The translations under genes were made by a program, and so were the position numbers. The notes beneath the pieces are model-generated. The model ran no database searches. It worked only from the letters and a program-made list of their open reading frames with translations, and was not told where the DNA came from. From positions 87,620 to 151,619 of the forward strand of contig JALNLN010000001.1 of the NCBI GenBank assembly GCA_023267855.1: a stretch of DNA of 64,000 nucleotides. Reading direction: 5' to 3'. Of the stretch, positions 3,417 through 58,422 are shown piece by piece. How positions within the stretch are numbered: position 1 is the first letter of the stretch; the number at the start of each line of letters is the position of its first letter. The DNA is from Candidatus Geocrenenecus dongiae (GTDB lineage: Archaea > Thermoproteota > Nitrososphaeria_A > Caldarchaeales > Wolframiiraptoraceae).

Positions 3417-3567
3417 TGATTGATTGAACATTAACGTGTAGAAATAATGTTTCCAAAAATTATTGTTGGTAAAAAAGTTCTGTTGGTGGAAATTTATATG
3501 AGGAGATGTTTCTGAACGTGTATTACTTTATGAGGTTTAAATATTTGGTTTGAATACTGATTAATTG

Positions 3568-4122
3568 ATGGTTTGGTGGTATACTCTACTAGATATTTTG
3601 ATAGGGATACTACAGCTGATTTTAGGCGTGGCCCTAGCGTTGTTCAGCATAACTATAGCCCTTAACATCTTGGATAGGACTACCAAGACGATAAATGAGT
3701 TTGAGGAGATACGTAAGAAAAACATAGCTGTAGCAATATACATTGCTGGAATATTGATAGCTGTTGGAAACGTCGTTGGACAAGCGGTGACAGGTATAAG
3801 CAGAGGAATCGTACCGGGACAATTTAATCTAGCAGCATTAATAGCTGGTCTTATCCAGTTATTCATAGGACTGCCACTAGCAATAGTATTGATAGTATGG
3901 GCTCAGTCGAGAGTCTATAGATGGCTCGTGAAAGCAGCTGAGAAACTGCCGGGAGTAACAGACATAAAAGAATTCGATATAGAGACCGAGCTGAAGAACG
4001 GGAACATGGCGACGGCCATAATACTTTTCGGAACCTTCGTCGCAATCTCTCTAGTCGCAAGCCAAGGAGTGGCCTGGCTCTCAGAACCACTAGCTTCTGC
4101 ACTACTACGTCTAATAAGCTGA
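3568..4122 (+). CDS. DUF350-family membrane protein
   Basis: The protein is about 184 residues with four or five membrane helices in two repeats. Each repeat contains the DUF350 pattern: NEFEEIRKKNIAVAIYIAG near residues 47-65 and FDIETELKNGNMATAIILFG near 134-153, where the E-x-x-x-(G/N)-N-x-A-x-A core is conserved. DUF350 (YjfL) proteins are inner-membrane proteins of unknown role. I chose the ATG at 3568 rather than the TTG just before it, because a TATA-like TTTAAATATT lies about 25 bases upstream and suggests a leaderless message. GC content rises through this gene, unlike its left neighbours. Confidence 0.75.
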   Translation: MVWWYTLLDILIGILQLILGVALALFSITIALNILDRTTKTINEFEEIRKKNIAVAIYIAGILIAVGNVVGQAVTGISRGIVPGQFNLAALIAGLIQLFIGLPLAIVLIVWAQSRVYRWLVKAAEKLPGVTDIKEFDIETELKNGNMATAIILFGTFVAISLVASQGVAWLSEPLASALLRLIS

Positions 4123-4370: not shown

Positions 4371-4471
4371 TTCTATCACTAACATTTACATTAATGCTCT
4401 TAACACTACAAGCTCCATTGATAATATAATCTGGGCTAAAATCTTATATAAAATTGCGGCGCAGGATATAT

Positions 4472-5539
4472 GTGTCTAATACGGATTTACCGCAACATTT
4501 CATAGAAAATGTTTTGAGGTTTAAGAAGAGTTATCTCGATTTTAGGAGCAGTGTCGAAGGATCGAGATTCGAGGAAGAGAGGAGGAAGCATGAAGCCGAG
4601 ATCAAGAGAATACTTAGCAGAGAGAACTTGGAGAAGCTGGATGAAGGCGGGCTTCTCACCCTCGCCAACAACCTGTACGCATTCATGTGGTGGGCTAAAA
4701 AAGAGTATCTCATAGATTATTGGATAAAAGGAGCAGGTGGACTGGATAGACTCAAACACCACTTAATGGAACTGCTATATTCTAACCGCAGTTTGGCTGA
4801 GAGGTTTGATGAATTCCGTAGAAATGTTAAGGGAATGGGTGTAGCGATGATAACGGAGATGCTGACATACTTTAATCCAAGAGAGTACTGCGTATGGAAT
4901 AGGAGGGCGAAGGAAGCATTATTTAAGCTCGGGCTGACTCAAGCCGCCACACTCAAAGTGAACAAGCTGACGGGAGAAGAGTATTCATTAATAATCAATA
5001 CCCTTAAGGAGATTGCAAGCTTACTGAAAGATCCAAAAATACTCCCAAACCCAGACCTATTAGATGTACATTACTTCCTGTATTATGTTCTCACCGTTGT
5101 CGAAGAAGAGGCTGAGCATGTGGCTGAAGAATCATTTGAGCACGATGACATTGTTGGTATGTTGTTGAATATCGGGAGGGGGCTGGGCTTCGACGCTATG
5201 AAGGAAGTTACGCTGGCCGCTGGAGCTAGAGTGGATGTTGTTTGGCTGGCGAGGATAGGCAATCTAGGCGAGCTGAGATACGTGTTCGAAGTCCACGTGA
5301 AAGGTAGCATCGACTCGCTACTACTCAATTTGATGAAGGCTTACCAAGACCCAACGGTTCAGAAAGTCGTAGCGGTCGCAAACAGAGAAGAACTGGAGAA
5401 GATCAAGAAGGAGGCATCAGCTCTTAAAGTGTTATCAGATAAGCTCGTTTACTGGGATGTAATAGAGGTTGTAAAGATCAACGAACTCATCGACGAACTC
5501 ATGAGCAGGATGCAGAACCTCGGCCTAACCAAGCTGTAG
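4472..5539 (+). CDS. Possible PD-(D/E)XK-like nuclease with HhH-like segment
   Basis: I do not recognise the family. The open frame begins at TTG 4454, but a TATA box at 4443-4450 makes the in-frame GTG at 4472 a more likely leaderless start, giving about 355 residues. The N-terminal half is helical and charged; residues near 120-150 (KGMGVAMITEML, then NPREYCVWNRRAKEAL) resemble a helix-hairpin-helix DNA-binding segment. The C-terminal part has GARVDVVWL followed by YVFEVHVKG, a strand pair with D...ExHxK spacing that resembles a nuclease core with a variant motif. Its GC-richer codon use matches the DUF350 gene and differs from the flanks, so the pair may be acquired. Function is inferred weakly. 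Confidence 0.5.
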   Translation: MSNTDLPQHFIENVLRFKKSYLDFRSSVEGSRFEEERRKHEAEIKRILSRENLEKLDEGGLLTLANNLYAFMWWAKKEYLIDYWIKGAGGLDRLKHHLMELLYSNRSLAERFDEFRRNVKGMGVAMITEMLTYFNPREYCVWNRRAKEALFKLGLTQAATLKVNKLTGEEYSLIINTLKEIASLLKDPKILPNPDLLDVHYFLYYVLTVVEEEAEHVAEESFEHDDIVGMLLNIGRGLGFDAMKEVTLAAGARVDVVWLARIGNLGELRYVFEVHVKGSIDSLLLNLMKAYQDPTVQKVVAVANREELEKIKKEASALKVLSDKLVYWDVIEVVKINELIDELMSRMQNLGLTKL

Positions 5540-5620
5540 CCCAGCACCTGGAGAAGCAAGTTTTTCCCAGCAAGAGCTTCCAGCCTGAAACTCAGAAAAA
5601 CCTTTTATCTACATAAGTTG

Positions 5621-6241
5621 ATGTATTCCCAAAGCTTGAAGCAGACGTTGGGGTTAAAGATCTTAAAGATCTTGATATGTAATAGTGATTGTAGAGTTGT
5701 AAAATTTTTGCAGGATAGAAGAATAGAAGCAGAATTTAAGAAGGTTAGAGTAGGCGAGTCTTTTTCAACCCACCTACTAAAATTACTTAAACCGATGGAG
5801 GGTAAAGAAAATATCGATATTAAAGGTTCATACATGATCCTGCCGGGTAACTATATTTGGATAGAGACTGAGAGCTGTACATCTTGTAAAATCTTTTCTA
5901 AGCTACCCGTGATAGTTGAATCTATATCATACGTTGAGTCTTCGGGGGTTGTTGTAAGATTAATAGTTCCAGGAAGACTATTCCACAGACATCTCATAGA
6001 AAATTTAAAGAAAGCTGGGTTAGATGTGAAAACGATTTTTATGAAAGATTATGTAGACTATGAGCTAACTAAAAGACAGAAGGAAGTTCTCGCACTTGCT
6101 CTAAAATTGAACTACCTAGGCAGTAGGAGGAGTATGAAATTAAAAGATATAGCGTTTCTAATAGGCTTAGACACATCTACGATTTCAAGAATAATTAGAG
6201 ATGCGGTAAAAAAGATTGTTAAAAAGCATCTAGAAGAATAG
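5621..6241 (+). CDS. HTH_10 (bacterio-opsin-activator-type) transcriptional regulator
   Basis: The protein is about 206 residues. Its C-terminus (about 150-205) reads ELTKRQKEVLALALKLNYL and later DIAFLIGLDTSTISRIIRDA, the HTH_10 DNA-binding domain typical of archaeal Bat-like regulators. The N-terminal 130 residues form an alpha/beta sensor-like region with a CTSC pair that could bind a metal, haem or redox signal. It lies directly upstream of the oxidase-like subunits on the same strand, so it is a good candidate for their regulator. I use ATG 5621; TTG 5618 also fits. A TTTTATC box lies about 20 bases upstream. Confidence 0.75.
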   Translation: MYSQSLKQTLGLKILKILICNSDCRVVKFLQDRRIEAEFKKVRVGESFSTHLLKLLKPMEGKENIDIKGSYMILPGNYIWIETESCTSCKIFSKLPVIVESISYVESSGVVVRLIVPGRLFHRHLIENLKKAGLDVKTIFMKDYVDYELTKRQKEVLALALKLNYLGSRRSMKLKDIAFLIGLDTSTISRIIRDAVKKIVKKHLEE

Positions 6242-6316
6242 TAATGATTAATAAAATTATCATGCAAAACATTGTATAGTAATGTAATTATTCATCACGT
6301 AGTACATTTTATTGGT

Positions 6317-6889
6317 ATGGCCCCACAACTCTTTATAGAATTAGTGTATTTTATCGTAATATCTATCGTTATAGGTTTCATAGTAATCTTCTATATCTTA
6401 ACTCAGAGGGGTAAGAGCAGTAAGGCGGATCCAGATAATGAATCCGTACCAAAGAAGGGTATGGAGAAGGGAGAGAAGCGTTGGCTGATATTCCTGTTCA
6501 TAGTGGTTGTTGTTGGGAACATACTCATGTTATCTCCACTACTTCCATCTTCACGATATGTTTTCTGGTTAGATGAAGAACCAAAAATGACCATCACTAT
6601 AGAAGTAAGAAACTATGAATTCGTATTTCCTGAGAATCCTATAACTATTCCGGCAGGAGTTCCAGTCGAGTTCATCGTCATATCTCATGACCTAGTTTAC
6701 GGATTCGGAGTATTCAATAAAGACGGGCTTATGATATTCCAAATGCAGGTAGTTCCTAAACCATACCTGAACAGTATAGTATGGGTGTTTACTGAGCCTG
6801 GTTACTACGATATAAGATCTACAGAGTACAGTGGTCCAAAACATCCCTACTTGTATTTTCCCAATACTATAAGAGTAGTCGGAGGATGA
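6317..6889 (+). CDS. Cupredoxin-like subunit II lacking CuA ligands
   Basis: This protein has two membrane helices (about residues 5-28 and 53-75 from ATG 6317; the frame is open from TTG 6272) and a C-terminal periplasmic-side cupredoxin domain with VEFIVISHDLVYGFGV. In true CuA subunits a CxxxC pair and a later H-x-x-x-M follow; here the equivalent stretch is YYDIRSTEYSGPKHPYLYF with no cysteine, so CuA cannot form. That points to a quinol-type or NO-reductase-like enzyme rather than cytochrome c oxidase. It is 6 bases upstream of subunit I. Confidence 0.8.
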   Translation: MAPQLFIELVYFIVISIVIGFIVIFYILTQRGKSSKADPDNESVPKKGMEKGEKRWLIFLFIVVVVGNILMLSPLLPSSRYVFWLDEEPKMTITIEVRNYEFVFPENPITIPAGVPVEFIVISHDLVYGFGVFNKDGLMIFQMQVVPKPYLNSIVWVFTEPGYYDIRSTEYSGPKHPYLYFPNTIRVVGG

Positions 6890-6895
6890 TGGGAA

Positions 6896-8464
6896 ATGAA
6901 TGAAGAAGAGAGGAAAGTACTCTCAATAAGGTTTGTAGTAGTCTCACTAATCTTTTTAGCATTGGCTGGAATAGAAGGAATATTGATGAGATTTAGATTG
7001 ATGAATACTCTTGTAGAATTTTTCGATGAAAAACATTTCTACTCTATGATGACTGCTCACCCGTTTGTAGGAGTATATGGGTGGGCTTACATGGCGGTTA
7101 TGGGCGCCTTCTACTTCCTCGTCCCCCACATACTCAAGAAAGAAATCTATAGTAAGAAAGCAGCGTATGTAAGCTTCTGGCTAATGTTGGTAGGTTTGAT
7201 AATTCTGTGGAGTACAACGTTCCTAACCCATTATGCTCCTCTCTATACATTGTACTGGCCTATACCTGTAGCGTACGAGATAATTGGATGGAATTTGTAC
7301 TCCATATTAACATTCGGGTTAGGGGTTGCGTTGATTTTGGGAGGAGTACTCGTATTCTTTGGAAACATGTTTGCAACTATATTTCTTCCTCCAAGATCAA
7401 CAGATGGAGGATCTCCATCTCCATGGTATGTTGTAAAAGAATTACTTATAACAGCGTTTAATCTAGACAAAATCAGAGCAAGGATATCTAAGATGCCTCA
7501 GTACACTTCTAAAGCGTTCAACTATCCTGTTTTCGTCGTAGCTGTATTCAGAGGATGTGTGGATACAACATTAAATGCGTTCGTTATTGGAGGAGTCGGT
7601 ATACTGTTGATAATATTTGCTATAGGAAATCTGATCCCCACGCTCTCTATACCATACACGATAGTTGATCCCCTAATATACAAGAACGTGTTTTGGTGGG
7701 GGCTAGATTTGATAGCAGATGGAAATGTACTTATCTTTACTGCAGGGACATGGTATCTCCTAGTTCCACTACTACTTAATAGAACACTATACGGTGAAAA
7801 TGTTGTAAGAACAGTTATACTTGCAGATCTCGTTGTCTCCCTCTTTGTATGGAACCACCACATGCTTGCAGATACACCTCAACCACTCTTCCTACAGATA
7901 CAAGGACAATTGTTTACTTGGGGAGAACTGATAACGATGGGACTTACAATGTTCGCAGTACTGGCAACAATATGGTTTGCTAGACCTGTTAAGTACACCA
8001 TGCCTCTCAAATTCATTCTCGCATCTATAACTGGATACGCTGTTGGAGGTCTAGCGGGAATAATACAAGCAAACTATGCATCAAACAGATTCTTCCATAA
8101 CACCCAGTGGGTTATAGGAATTCATGGACATATACAGTTGCTGGTAGGATTATCTTCAACACTATTTGCAGCAATCTACGCTCTCTTCCCTCTACTCACA
8201 GGTAGATCACTCAACGAGAAACTAGGAAACATCCATCTATTATTATGGAGCATAGGAGGGTTGATTATGGGTTTAAGCATGGGGATGGCTGGAACACTAG
8301 GCATGTTAAGGAGAACTCTCTACCCAATGGGTCTAGGACCTTTTGAACCATACATGATAGTAGCTACCTTAGGAGCATTAATGATGGCCACAGCATTCAT
8401 AGCATTCATCGTAAATATTCTTAAAACAATAAAATTAACAAACCTCCTGAAGATACTCTTCTAA
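6896..8464 (+). CDS. Heme-copper oxidase/NO reductase-like subunit I with Asp at a metal-ligand position
   Basis: The protein has 522 residues and about 12-13 membrane helices. Heme ligands are visible: H55 (TAHPFVG) and H412 for the low-spin heme and H410 for the high-spin heme (GIHGHIQ). The HH pair of the copper/iron centre is at 321-322 (WNHHML). The first ligand, normally H in GHPEVY or in the NOR motif WWxxHLWVEG, is replaced: the sequence is WWGLDLIADGN, giving D271 and D275. The D275 position matches the NOR glutamate. The crosslinking Tyr is missing. All this favours a NO-reductase-like member of the superfamily; the real substrate is unknown. Confidence 0.85.
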   Translation: MNEEERKVLSIRFVVVSLIFLALAGIEGILMRFRLMNTLVEFFDEKHFYSMMTAHPFVGVYGWAYMAVMGAFYFLVPHILKKEIYSKKAAYVSFWLMLVGLIILWSTTFLTHYAPLYTLYWPIPVAYEIIGWNLYSILTFGLGVALILGGVLVFFGNMFATIFLPPRSTDGGSPSPWYVVKELLITAFNLDKIRARISKMPQYTSKAFNYPVFVVAVFRGCVDTTLNAFVIGGVGILLIIFAIGNLIPTLSIPYTIVDPLIYKNVFWWGLDLIADGNVLIFTAGTWYLLVPLLLNRTLYGENVVRTVILADLVVSLFVWNHHMLADTPQPLFLQIQGQLFTWGELITMGLTMFAVLATIWFARPVKYTMPLKFILASITGYAVGGLAGIIQANYASNRFFHNTQWVIGIHGHIQLLVGLSSTLFAAIYALFPLLTGRSLNEKLGNIHLLLWSIGGLIMGLSMGMAGTLGMLRRTLYPMGLGPFEPYMIVATLGALMMATAFIAFIVNILKTIKLTNLLKILF

Positions 8465-8596: not shown

Positions 8597-10222
8597 GTGG
8601 GTTGGATGCTCTCTAATGTTTTAGGATTTATTAATGGTAATATCTATGTTTCATTCATTCCCTTGAGAAAGGCTTCTGGGATAGTAGTATGTGCTGAACG
8701 GATATTGTATGTTGGTGAGAAGGAAAAAGCTGAAAGATTGGCTACGATGTTGAACGGGTCCATAATAGATCTTAATGGTTTAACAGTTATGCCTGGATTT
8801 ATTGATTCCCACATGCATGTTGATGATCTAGCTGTGTCTCTACACTCAATTAATCTTAGAAGCGTACATTCAATAAAGACGCTTAAACAATACTTGAAGA
8901 ATTATTATGAGAAGAATAAAGAAGTATCTTGGATTGTTGGTAGAGGGTGGGATCAAGAATTATTTGAAGAAAAACGTTGGCCCAGCCGTTATGACATAGA
9001 TGATGTCGTACCAGATAAACCTGTATTTCTTGAGAGAATTTGTGGACATGCAGCTGTGGTAAATACTGCTGCTCTAAGTTCCATAAGTGTCCATCGAGAT
9101 CTAATGAAAGATCCATACTTCTTAAAAGATCAAGATGGGAATCTGACAGGAGTGGTAGTTGAAGATGCTGTAAAATTATTTCGAGAAAATTTACAATTTG
9201 AAGATAGTGAAATGCTTAGAATGATACATGACGCTCTACTATATTCTGCATCACTAGGTGTTACAACCTTAGGATTCATGTCCTGCAATCTCAGATCATT
9301 AAAATTACTACAAATCCTTAGACATCAAAATAGATTACCCGTAAGATTGAGAGTATACATGAAGAAAGAATTATTGAACAACATAATAGGTCTAGGAATT
9401 AGAAGATCTTTCGGAGATGATTTTCTTAAAATAATGGGTATAAAGATTTTCGCAGATGGATCTCTTGGAGCCCACACGGCTTGGCTGTCTGAACCTTATC
9501 AAGATCTTCCAAAATCTGAAGGAATGCCAATAATTGAAAAAGATGAATTAACCAAAATTGTAGAAGAGGTACATAATGCCGATCTACAGTTAGCTATTCA
9601 TGCAATAGGAGACAGAGCAATCGACATGGTCCTAGAAGCTTATGGGCGTCTTAAAGATTTATCTCCTAAGAATAGACATAGGATAGAGCATGCATCTATA
9701 ATAAGACCAGATCAGATAGGAAAGATAGCTAAGCTTGGAGTACTAGTTTCAATACAACCTCACTTTATCATTAGTGATTGGTGGGTAGTTAAGAGGGTTG
9801 GGGAAAGGAGAGCTGCTTGGGTGTATCCATTTAAATCTTTAATTAAAAATGGTGTAGAAATCGGGCTCTCTTCTGACAGCCCAGTTGAACCATTAAATCC
9901 ATGGGAGACAGTTTATGCAGCTATTTCCAGAGGTGGTGAAAATATAGAACTCTACAAATATACTTCTAATGAAGCTCTATCGGTAATCGAGGCTCTCCAT
10001 TTCTATACTAGTGGATCTGCGTATCTTTTATTTGAAGAAGATCATCTCGGCACACTAGAAGCTGGAAAATATGCAGATTTTATCATAATTGATAATGATC
10101 CATTACAAGCAAGCATAGAAGAGCTGAAGAATATAAAGAATATAATGACCATAACCTCAGGAAACATAGTTTATCAAGATAAAAAATTCTCGGCAGATAT
10201 CGTGTCGAGACATACTGCGTAG
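8597..10222 (+). CDS. YtcJ-type amidohydrolase
   Basis: This 541-residue protein is a metal-dependent amidohydrolase of the amidohydrolase 3 / YtcJ group. Metal-binding motifs are visible in order: GFIDSHMH near residue 68, AIHAIGDRA near 335, HRIEHAS near 355 and LSSDSPV near 420. The C-terminal segment GTLEAGKYADFIIIDNDP is the usual beta-sandwich part of these enzymes. The true substrate of most YtcJ proteins is unknown; hydrolysis of an amide or formamide is the general reaction. The start is GTG 8597, or ATG 8606. It leads a plus-strand run with a peptidase and a decarboxylase. Confidence 0.85.
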   Translation: MGWMLSNVLGFINGNIYVSFIPLRKASGIVVCAERILYVGEKEKAERLATMLNGSIIDLNGLTVMPGFIDSHMHVDDLAVSLHSINLRSVHSIKTLKQYLKNYYEKNKEVSWIVGRGWDQELFEEKRWPSRYDIDDVVPDKPVFLERICGHAAVVNTAALSSISVHRDLMKDPYFLKDQDGNLTGVVVEDAVKLFRENLQFEDSEMLRMIHDALLYSASLGVTTLGFMSCNLRSLKLLQILRHQNRLPVRLRVYMKKELLNNIIGLGIRRSFGDDFLKIMGIKIFADGSLGAHTAWLSEPYQDLPKSEGMPIIEKDELTKIVEEVHNADLQLAIHAIGDRAIDMVLEAYGRLKDLSPKNRHRIEHASIIRPDQIGKIAKLGVLVSIQPHFIISDWWVVKRVGERRAAWVYPFKSLIKNGVEIGLSSDSPVEPLNPWETVYAAISRGGENIELYKYTSNEALSVIEALHFYTSGSAYLLFEEDHLGTLEAGKYADFIIIDNDPLQASIEELKNIKNIMTITSGNIVYQDKKFSADIVSRHTA

Positions 10223-10297
10223 AACCAGTTACCTACTTTGAAAACTAAAATCTTATAGATGCTGATATTCTAGAATAGGTTAAAGGATGTGGTGGAG

Positions 10298-12055
10298 ATG
10301 TCTAAAGATAATTTCCGTATAGATATGGAGAATGTGTGGAAACACATAGAAATGCTCTGCAATTTTCCTGATAGAATAGCAGGCACAGAAAACATTGAGA
10401 AAGCTTCAAGATACATTTTAGATTATTTGAAAAGAATTAATGGACTAGAAGTCTGGATTGAGAGATTCCACTTCCTAACAAGCTTTCCAATAGAATCTTA
10501 TTTTGAGATCATAGAACCTGAATTTAGATCAATAAACTGTTTCCCTAACCTCTTCAGCGAAAACACGTCAGATGAAGGAATAACTGGTGAAATAATATAT
10601 CTAGGTGGAGGTGGAGAAGAAGAATACTCTGGTAAAGATTGCGTAGACAAATTTGTATTAGTTGAGTTATCATACTCTCCGCCAAGAACTGAAAAAGCTA
10701 GAATTGCCAGCAATAATAAAGCTAAAGCATTAATAATTATGAATTGGGGTCATAGTGAGAATAGAATTGTAGGTAGAGGAGCAATAAAAAGTGTATGGGG
10801 AATCCCTACTACTAAAGATTTAGAAAAGATCCCGAAAATAGTCTCTATAAATATCTCGAAGTTTGATGGTGAATACATTAAAAATATTTTATCAAGAAAT
10901 AGTAAAGTGAAGGGTAAGATAAAGGTTAAAGTTAGAAATGAGTGGGTAAATGCTAATCAACCTATGTGTAGAATAGAATCACTGAAACCTGAATTTAAAG
11001 AAGAATTTATCATCGTGGGTGGACATTTGGAAGCCTGGGGAAAGACAGCTACTGATAATTCTGCTGGTAATGCAATTATGTTAGAGATGATCAGAATACT
11101 TTCTGAAAAAAGAGATAAGTTATTACGAAGCATCTTATTTGGATTCTGGGATGGACATGAAATAGGTGAAGCAGCCGGCTCAGCATATTTTGTAGATTAC
11201 TATTGGAGTGATCTTAATAGTGGAGGTGTTGCCTACGTAAATATTGATGGATGCGGGTTAGCTGGAGCTAGTAGATTTGTATCGTATTCCTCTCCAGAAA
11301 CCTGGAAATTCTTAGAAGAAGTTGAAAAAGAAGTAATCGGCAAACCGTCGGAGAAAAAGCTTCCACTGAAATTCGGGGATAACTCATTTCAAGGCATAGG
11401 TATACCTTACATCTTCACCTTCACAACATATAAAGAAGATGAATTAGAGAAATTAGGAGGAGCTATTTTTGGATGGTGGTATCATAGTGAAGAAGATACA
11501 TTAGATAAGATAGATAAGGAGCTCTTAGAAATACAGGCAAGACTCTACATGGAGTACGTTCTGAGACTTTTATGTACACCGCTACTACCATTTGATTTTA
11601 TAAAATTTATTGAAGTAATAGAGATGGAGATCGCTAAGATAAAGGAGGCTTTCCCAGAATATCTGTTAACCTCCCATATTTACAAGCTTGAAAAAGAAGT
11701 TAATGAATTAAAGAAACAATTGATCGAAATATATAAGCTCTCAGAAGAATACAAAGACCAGTACAATCTTTCTTTCATCAAATCATTTAACCAGTTATTA
11801 CTTAAGTTATGTAGAATTTTAATCCCAGTCTTTAGGAGTACCGTGGAGAAATATTCCCACGACGTTTATGGATGCTTATATCTATCGAAACCACTACCAC
11901 GTATCTACAAAATATTAGATAACATGGTAAAAATATCTAGGGATGATTGGAAAAACCATGCACTAAAAATTGAATTAACTAGGCAATACAATGTTTTACA
12001 TGACTCGCTAATTGATGCTATTTCTCTTTGCAGAAACTTCTTAAATAAACATTAG
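10298..12055 (+). CDS. M28-family zinc peptidase
   Basis: The protein is about 585 residues and lacks a signal peptide, so it is probably cytoplasmic. The two-zinc site of M28 peptidases is complete: GGHLEAWG, TDNSAGN, GHEIGEAAGS, NIDGCGLA and a late YHSEEDTLD. A PA-like insertion precedes it (about residues 90-200). A long helical C-terminus follows. The likely job is removing amino acids from peptides. I start at ATG 10298, because GGTGGAG right before it is the same ribosome-binding pattern seen at livG. The downstream decarboxylase follows after 11 bases. Confidence 0.85.
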   Translation: MSKDNFRIDMENVWKHIEMLCNFPDRIAGTENIEKASRYILDYLKRINGLEVWIERFHFLTSFPIESYFEIIEPEFRSINCFPNLFSENTSDEGITGEIIYLGGGGEEEYSGKDCVDKFVLVELSYSPPRTEKARIASNNKAKALIIMNWGHSENRIVGRGAIKSVWGIPTTKDLEKIPKIVSINISKFDGEYIKNILSRNSKVKGKIKVKVRNEWVNANQPMCRIESLKPEFKEEFIIVGGHLEAWGKTATDNSAGNAIMLEMIRILSEKRDKLLRSILFGFWDGHEIGEAAGSAYFVDYYWSDLNSGGVAYVNIDGCGLAGASRFVSYSSPETWKFLEEVEKEVIGKPSEKKLPLKFGDNSFQGIGIPYIFTFTTYKEDELEKLGGAIFGWWYHSEEDTLDKIDKELLEIQARLYMEYVLRLLCTPLLPFDFIKFIEVIEMEIAKIKEAFPEYLLTSHIYKLEKEVNELKKQLIEIYKLSEEYKDQYNLSFIKSFNQLLLKLCRILIPVFRSTVEKYSHDVYGCLYLSKPLPRIYKILDNMVKISRDDWKNHALKIELTRQYNVLHDSLIDAISLCRNFLNKH

Positions 12056-56193: not shown

Positions 56194-58422
56194 TTAGAGA
56201 ATTCCTTGAAGGATCCATAAGAAGTAGAGTGGTATGAAGACTAGGGAGATTGTGTTTAATAGTTTTATCAATATGTGTAGAGATGGACCAACGGTATCTT
56301 TTAATGGGTCTCCAACTGTATCTCCAACGACAGCTGCTTGATGGGCTGCTGAACGTTTCCCACCTAGATTTCCAGCTTCTATGAATTTCTTTGCATTATC
56401 CCATGTGGCTCCTCCCCACATCATCATTATAGCTAAAGGTATAGTAGAAGCCGTGGCTCCGATAACCAGTGCTCCTACTCCAGCTCCACCAAATAGTAAT
56501 CCTATTATGAGAGGTGTTATTATTATTACCAAGCTTGGTCCAATCATACTCTTTAATGCGTATTGAGTACTTATAGCCACAGCTCTATAGTAATCTGGCT
56601 TAGTAGCTCCATCTAATAATCCAGGAATCTCTCTGAACTGTCTTCTAACTTCTTCAACCATTTGGAATGCAGCTTTAGATACTGCTTTCAAAGCTATCCC
56701 TGAGAATAAGTATGGTAAAAGAGCGCCTACTAATACCGCGATAATTATATCTGGTTTAAGAAGTATTATATAGTCTATGAATTCTTTCATGTATTGGAGT
56801 AGGATTTTTGTGTTTAGTTCTAGGATTCCTGTCTGTCTAGCTACATAGTCTTGTATAAATGCTTGGAATAATAGGAGCGTTGCTATTGTTGCTGAGGCCA
56901 TGGCATAACCTTTTGTTAAAGCTTTAGTTGTATTTCCAACGGCGTCTAATGGGTCTATATTCTTTCTAACAGATTCTTCTAATCCAGCCATCTCAGCTAT
57001 CCCTCCAGCATTATCAGCTATTGGTCCAGCTCCATCAAGAGTCATAATAGTTCCAGCTAGAGAAAGCATACCTCTAGTAGCTAAAGCTGTTCCAAAAACT
57101 CCTTTAATGAAATCTGTCAGCCACCCTCCTTCAAGTCCTGGTAGAGGCATTGTTTTTCCAGCGTAGAAAGCTATACCTAAAGCTATGGCTATGATTATTA
57201 TCGGTTCTGCAACAGCTCTCATACCTACAGATAAGCCTGCGAGTATGTTTATTGCAGGACCGCTTTGTGAAGATTGGGCTACTTCTTGTACTAACTTAGA
57301 CTTGGTTCCAGTATACCTGTTTGTTGATAGGACTACGAGCGTAGCTCCAATTATACCTGCGGCTCCAGCTGCTAACATGTTGAGCCACTGGAGGGGGAAT
57401 AAGGCATAGACGACTAGAGCGTAGGTTAAGATCGAGATTATGGCGGAGATAACGATTCCGAAAGCAAATGGTTCAAATGGTTCTTTGAATCTACGGTATG
57501 AGAGTATTCCAAGTACTCCTGAAATTGTTGAGATTACTCCTACAGCTCCTATAGCTAGAGGGAGCACTATGAAGAGTGGTTGATCTGTTAATACATAGAG
57601 CACCCATCCTATAATCATGCCTCCGAGAGTTTCAGCAGTAACAGATTCAAATATGTCTGCACCTCTACCTGCACAATCTCCAACATTATCTCCAACTTGA
57701 TCAGCTATGACTGCTGGATTTCTAGGATCATCTTCAGGTATTCCTGCTTCTATCTTTCCAACTAGATCTGCTCCTATATCTGCAGCTTTCGTATATATTC
57801 CTCCACCAAGCTGTGCAAATAAAGCTGATAAACTTGCTCCGAAAGCGAATCCCGCTATAGCGTCGAGAACCATGCGGTACTCTACTTCTTGAGGTAACCC
57901 TCCAGAGATTAAACTAAACACTACGAATAGTATTGATAATCCTAGTAAGCTTAAACTGTATACTGAGAATCCTAAGACACCTCCACCTAAGACAGCTACT
58001 TTAAGAGCTTCTAGACTATTTTTCTTACCTGCTTCTGTTACTCTAACATTTGTACGAGTTGATGCATCCATGCTGAAGAAAGCTGCAGCTACAGATGAAG
58101 CTCCACCAACAATTACCGATAGGCCTGTAAGTAATGATTCTTTTAAAGCAATATCTGAAGGGATCTTCATCATTGAAGTATAGATAACATAAATCATTAT
58201 AGTTATGATTATGGCCAGAATTGCTGTGAATGAGAGTATAGTTTTTATTTGTTTACTCATGTATGCTTTAGCACCTTCTCTAATAGCTCTCCAGACTTCA
58301 ATCATTTTAGGAGAACCTACTGGATACTTCTGGACAACATAGTATAGAATGATAGCGGCGAGAACTCCGAGAACCCCTGAAATAACAGCCAGTACAGATA
58401 TATTGAATACTTCTACATGCAT
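56194..58422 (-). CDS. hppA: Membrane-bound H+-translocating pyrophosphatase
   Basis: The 742-residue protein has about 16 membrane helices and the PPi-binding motifs DDPRNPAVIADQVGDNVGD and GADLVGKIEAG. The stretch GNTTKALTKGYA has Lys where K+-dependent enzymes have Ala, so it should be the K+-independent type. It couples PPi hydrolysis to proton pumping. A late DxxxGGKRSAAHQAAVVGDTVGDP is also present. It would recover energy from PPi, for example from aminoacylation reactions. Confidence 0.96.
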   Translation of the reverse strand: MHVEVFNISVLAVISGVLGVLAAIILYYVVQKYPVGSPKMIEVWRAIREGAKAYMSKQIKTILSFTAILAIIITIMIYVIYTSMMKIPSDIALKESLLTGLSVIVGGASSVAAAFFSMDASTRTNVRVTEAGKKNSLEALKVAVLGGGVLGFSVYSLSLLGLSILFVVFSLISGGLPQEVEYRMVLDAIAGFAFGASLSALFAQLGGGIYTKAADIGADLVGKIEAGIPEDDPRNPAVIADQVGDNVGDCAGRGADIFESVTAETLGGMIIGWVLYVLTDQPLFIVLPLAIGAVGVISTISGVLGILSYRRFKEPFEPFAFGIVISAIISILTYALVVYALFPLQWLNMLAAGAAGIIGATLVVLSTNRYTGTKSKLVQEVAQSSQSGPAINILAGLSVGMRAVAEPIIIIAIALGIAFYAGKTMPLPGLEGGWLTDFIKGVFGTALATRGMLSLAGTIMTLDGAGPIADNAGGIAEMAGLEESVRKNIDPLDAVGNTTKALTKGYAMASATIATLLLFQAFIQDYVARQTGILELNTKILLQYMKEFIDYIILLKPDIIIAVLVGALLPYLFSGIALKAVSKAAFQMVEEVRRQFREIPGLLDGATKPDYYRAVAISTQYALKSMIGPSLVIIITPLIIGLLFGGAGVGALVIGATASTIPLAIMMMWGGATWDNAKKFIEAGNLGGKRSAAHQAAVVGDTVGDPLKDTVGPSLHILIKLLNTISLVFIPLYFLWILQGIL

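Follow-up and report, generated by a model that had tools for sequence, protein, structure and literature searches.

Analysis of a 64,000-nucleotide stretch of DNA (the window) from the heat-loving archaeon Candidatus Geocrenenecus dongiae raises the question of which reaction is catalyzed by an oxidase-like subunit I that carries an aspartate in the place of the first CuB/FeB histidine, a ligand kept by nearly all members of the respiratory oxidase superfamily. Comparison with relatives and their gene neighborhoods suggests that subunit I, subunit II and a regulator form a three-gene unit that very probably encodes an NO reductase of the gNOR family. The genes and residue positions on which the argument turns are these:

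5618..6241, forward strand: HTH_10 (Bat-type) regulator with a conserved Cys and a CxxC motif (PF04967, E 1.5e-8, above cut-off)
6272..6889, forward strand: subunit II, two TM helices and a CuA-type cupredoxin domain without CuA ligands (CoxB match, model fold, alignment)
6896..8464, forward strand: subunit I, heme-copper superfamily, gNOR family, 522 aa (Pfam COX1, alignments, tree)
7058..7060, forward strand: H55, low-spin heme ligand position (52-row alignment)
7670..7777, forward strand: helix VI, residues 259-294, without His (sequence and structure model)
7706..7708, forward strand: D271, first CuB/FeB His position, in the WWGLD that begins at residue 267 (alignments)
7718..7720, forward strand: D275, position of the crosslinked Tyr or of the FeB Glu (Glu211) (alignments)
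7856..7861, forward strand: H321-H322, the remaining two CuB/FeB His (52-row alignment)
7925..7927, forward strand: E344, in the cNOR Glu280 column, V/A/I/L in oxidase rows (profile and 52-row alignments)
8123..8131, forward strand: H410 (high-spin heme) and H412 (low-spin heme) positions (52-row alignment)

Subunit I is the only COX1-family gene in the source genome (1.44 Mb, 98% complete), and the Pfam COX1 match spans residues 10-496 of the 522-aa ORF (E 7.6e-63); among NCBIfam models, those of oxidases alone match, every one far below cut-off. The sequence-only reading had proposed that Asp replaces the first CuB/FeB His (D271) and the FeB Glu (D275), that the ligands H55, H321, H322, H410 and H412 are retained, and that the crosslinked Tyr of oxidases is missing. 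All of these residues stand exactly where it placed them, and the alignments bear out the replacements. Against cNOR/qNOR, a profile-profile alignment matches each column of WWGLDLIADGN to one of WWVIHLWVEAT, ungapped in the helix, setting D271 on the His and D275 on the FeB Glu. In a 52-row alignment, all 18 A/B-type oxidase rows have His at D271 and Tyr at D275, and no crosslinkable Tyr was found at the active-site position of subunit I, which is Asp; the ccoN rows, which are offset there by a single residue, were left out of this column assignment. A profile-profile alignment against oxidases alone opens a 4-column gap in helix VI and would drop D275 onto the His, a result we regard as an artefact that requires two compensating gaps and breaks the helix. 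A different His in this helix that might serve as ligand was also looked for, and residues 259-294 contain none; because helix VI has no His, an Asp occupies the His position under either alignment.

In a search of 398 Thermoproteota genomes, about a dozen near relatives (52-87% identity) were clearly separated from ordinary oxidases, which reached ~35% identity or less. Among named organisms, Ca. Geocrenenecus huangii has the closest relative (86-87%); it is from the window's own genus, Geocrenenecus, which belongs to the Wolframiiraptoraceae (PMC9246946). A GTDB genome scan with an alignment of the near relatives yielded 396 related loci, the best 80 of which lie in Caldarchaeales/Geothermarchaeota and other Thermoproteota among archaea and in Chloroflexota, Campylobacterota (Sulfurimonas, Sulfurovum, Nitratiruptor and Sulfurospirillum), Bacteroidota, Omnitrophota, Myxococcota and Acidobacteriota among bacteria. 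A search of plasmids turned up ordinary oxidases (22-33% identity) but no gNOR. The WWGLDxxADG motif is kept in 81 of 81 sequences, and D271 and D275, both invariant, can therefore be neither chance nor sequencing error; the same conservation rules out a mutation or pseudogene confined to one genome. H55, H321, H322, H410 and H412 are kept in all 80 sequences that have letters there.

The bacterial members identify the family. Published gNOR entries for Sulfurimonas, Sulfurovum and Persephonella give D as the active-site residue (PMC8756737 Table A4). Searches of Sulfurimonas genomes gave ccoN, cNOR and a homologue of the window protein as the confident COX1 genes, and the Sulfurovum genome searched gave ccoN and such a homologue; since the homologue is the sole confident HCO there besides ccoN (and cNOR), it represents the published gNOR family. 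The Sulfurimonas and Sulfurovum orthologues are 41-44% identical to the window protein, carry identical active-site motifs and join it in one 100/100 clade. Judged by sequence, then, the window protein is a new archaeal member of a known and already named family, with which it shares the Asp at the Tyr/Glu211 position and a cupredoxin-type subunit II; compared with bacterial gNOR, the pair represents an archaeal branch with distinct neighbors, namely an HTH_10 regulator and, in one case, nos genes. The earlier suggestion of an archaeal NOR-like family with Asp thus finds its counterpart in gNOR. That reading had left the choice between an NO reductase variant and a new activity; gNOR membership better supports the former, and the latter found no support. 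The family was put forward by Hemp & Gennis 2008, Sievert 2008 and Murali 2024 (references given in PMC8756737 and PMC11388526) and has been termed proposed (PMC11388526) and quinone-oxidising (PMC8906906). In the literature searched, we met no mention of the gNOR His-to-Asp ligand change or of E344. What the present comparison adds is the placement of E344 in the Glu280 column; the His-to-Asp change, which Murali et al. 2024 may have noted, is not claimed as new.

E344 supplies the second carboxylate. It is invariant (81/81), and in the 52-row alignment every gNOR, cNOR and qNOR row has E in its column, where all oxidase and ccoN rows have V/A/I/L; the profile alignment with cNOR/qNOR likewise pairs it with Glu280. 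cNOR depends critically on Glu211 and Glu280, the latter three residues past Ser277, for its activity and for taking up protons (PMC3431322). Their gNOR counterparts are D275 and E344, which lies three past T341. The window protein thus resembles cNOR/qNOR in its heme ligands, its HH pair, E344 at Glu280 and a carboxylate at the Glu211 position, but differs in having D271 and D275 instead of three FeB His and Glu211, in its cupredoxin-type neighbor instead of a cytochrome c subunit or fused quinol domain, and in its separate branch of the tree. Other non-canonical NORs of the heme-copper superfamily, eNOR, sNOR and CuA-NOR (bNOR), have Gln or Asn at the active-site position where gNOR has Asp (PMC8756737 Table A4), although eNOR and sNOR have been described as two-subunit enzymes with a cupredoxin subunit II like that of the window pair. 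Membership in cNOR/qNOR, eNOR or sNOR was rejected because the active-site residues differ.

Descent from B-family oxygen reductases and a lack of proton channels are among the traits by which gNOR is defined. In the tree, gNOR forms a 100/100 clade on the oxidase side; its grouping with oxidase rows, to the exclusion of cNOR/qNOR (itself 100/100) and ccoN, has support of 98/93. A tree constrained to unite gNOR and cNOR/qNOR is worse by 10 log units (AU p 0.07), which disfavors the grouping but does not reject it, so the two-carboxylate design was likely, though not provably, reached independently of cNOR/qNOR. We know of no solved heme-copper enzyme with such a carboxylate-rich metal site. 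That the site is an Asp-His-His (plus Asp and Glu) non-heme iron center, and in addition represents either an independent NOR design or a related but different NO chemistry, is a tentative proposal, one we consider rather less probable than its failure.

Subunit II lies immediately upstream, ending six bases before the start of subunit I; its true start may be an ATG at 6317. A homologue occupies the same position in 64 related loci. By fold, its model matches the CuA domains of ba3 oxidases, and Y143, S183, E185 and S187 stand where CuA has His, Cys, Glu and Cys; in the 64 aligned subunits II, almost all rows carry Tyr or Ser in place of the CuA His and two Cys, and the Glu alone is kept, in agreement with the earlier description of a CuA-less neighbor. 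The architecture is therefore one of two subunits, with a cupredoxin-type subunit II in place of cytochrome c. Loss of the CuA ligands is the pattern of quinol oxidases, and on this ground quinol is the probable electron donor. In subunit I, H55 and H412 would hold a low-spin heme and H410 a high-spin heme, while D271, H321, H322 and perhaps D275 would coordinate a non-heme metal that is probably Fe. At this heme/non-heme site a pair of NO molecules would be converted to N2O, and D275 and E344 may act there as Glu211 and Glu280 do in cNOR, in metal coordination, charge and proton delivery. The enzyme is likely to let an anaerobe detoxify NO or carry out the NO-reducing step of a partial denitrification pathway.

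The gene neighborhoods of relatives lend support to this proposal. In Ca. Geothermarchaeum rappei (loci L041 and L157), the gNOR operon adjoins NosZ (TIGR04246, 803 bits), NosL and NosD, together with an ABC pair, a cupredoxin and a NapH-like ferredoxin protein; the order beside gNOR is nosZ-L-x-D-F-Y (L041 11580-21313), with two HTH_10 regulators. Of 50 gNOR genomes, 15 also encode NosZ, and 8 of these are archaeal. Within the Thermoproteota sample it was found in 4 of 13 gNOR-positive genomes, compared with 4 of the 385 others (Fisher p 5e-5), and within the order the association is weaker (one-sided Fisher p 0.03-0.04), these p values ignoring the kinship that confounds it. Sulfurimonas gNOR is flanked by NarK-like transporters and nitrate-reductase/formate-dehydrogenase-like molybdoenzymes, and the neighboring regulators are Rrf2 in Bacteroidota and Crp/Fnr-type in Chloroflexota. 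Co-occurrence of NirK, weak at 4 of 50 gNOR genomes with none over cut-off, was dropped as support. In Ca. Pelearchaeum maunauluense (L040), gNOR lies at 10001-11581 and NosZ elsewhere in the genome. This organism was reported to have nirK and no NOR, and abiotic removal of NO by iron was proposed (PMC10547907). The gNOR gene appears to have been overlooked in that work, and the 'missing' NOR is likely, from its sequence, a gNOR gene read as an oxidase; these widespread genes resemble cytochrome oxidases to annotation.

Whether the Asp-rich site performs some other N-oxide or NO chemistry, such as NO dismutation, was considered, given the unusual ligand set and given that no purified or assayed gNOR was found in the literature searched. 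The way in which E344 and D275 mirror canonical NOR argues against this idea, as does the co-occurrence with NosZ, which fits an enzyme that produces N2O, and we consider it unlikely. A slightly less likely alternative is a quinol oxidase that reduces O2 without a crosslinked Tyr, as an O2-scavenging oxidase of anaerobes. The structure model of subunit I (mean pLDDT 84.7, with block means of 66-79, or moderate confidence, around the active site) matches heme-copper oxidases in the PDB with TM 0.74-0.81 at ~20% identity, A-type oxidases being the nearest solved folds; the structure search found no solved structure from the gNOR family. This likeness, the resemblance of subunit II to ba3 CuA domains and the status of gNOR as sole HCO in many carriers (it is the only COX1 gene in 12 of 30 gNOR genomes) would suit an O2 reductase. 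The window pair also shares with A/B-type quinol and cytochrome c oxidases an RR motif (R472-R473) and a CuA-domain subunit II, but differs from them in the changes of His to Asp and Tyr to Asp, an extra Glu, the absence of CuA and the lack of a K-channel Lys, a position that is Thr or Ala in gNOR (52-row alignment). The crosslinked Tyr is taken as essential for O-O cleavage. Its replacement by Asp in 81 of 81 sequences, the NOR-like E344, the nos, NarK-like, Rrf2 and Crp/Fnr neighbors, and the CydA-like bd oxidase already present in the source genome all speak against O2 reduction. A degenerate, non-catalytic oxidase paralogue, for which the missing His ligand and missing CuA might speak, is very improbable, as the site and all heme ligands are near-absolutely conserved across several phyla and gNOR is often the sole HCO. 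For an NO reductase of the gNOR family, the invariant D271, D275 and E344 are direct mutational targets for the tuning of a heme/non-heme site from O2 to NO, and what should attract specialists is that the D/H/H + D + E site never varies and that it resembles NOR chemistry.

The source genome was searched for NirK and NosZ, with no match to either, which counts against the proposal as regards a source of NO; for this archaeon, detoxifying NO is a more plausible role than complete denitrification. Sulfolobus acidocaldarius makes A-type heme. CtaB (heme O synthase) is present in the source genome and CtaA gave no match, an absence that is weak as proof of heme b/o because the CtaA model also misses the control S. 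acidocaldarius. Two UbiA-family genes were found (L112, L113), a heme O synthase and a GGGP-transferase-like gene, neither of them MenA-like, although a bd oxidase and gNOR are present. Genus siblings have 3-5, and the low count, which weighs against a quinol donor, may reflect an assembly gap.

The HTH_10 protein is a probable redox- or NO-responsive regulator of the operon. Next to gNOR in a dozen archaeal loci lie homologues of this regulator, whose aligned rows retain the Cys; four further archaeal loci have members of another HTH_10-like cluster beside gNOR. Directly 3′ of gNOR in 15 bacterial loci (Campylobacterota, Myxococcales; e.g., L075 11670-12269) lies a ~205-aa protein of no known Pfam family, a candidate accessory gene. 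Upstream of the operon, the window encodes a DUF350 membrane protein (3565-4122, forward strand) and, between that gene and the operon, a 361-aa gene without a family match (4454-5539). Farther away, at 56194-58422 on the reverse strand, a 742-aa protein resembles, by eye, membrane-bound proton/sodium pyrophosphatases.
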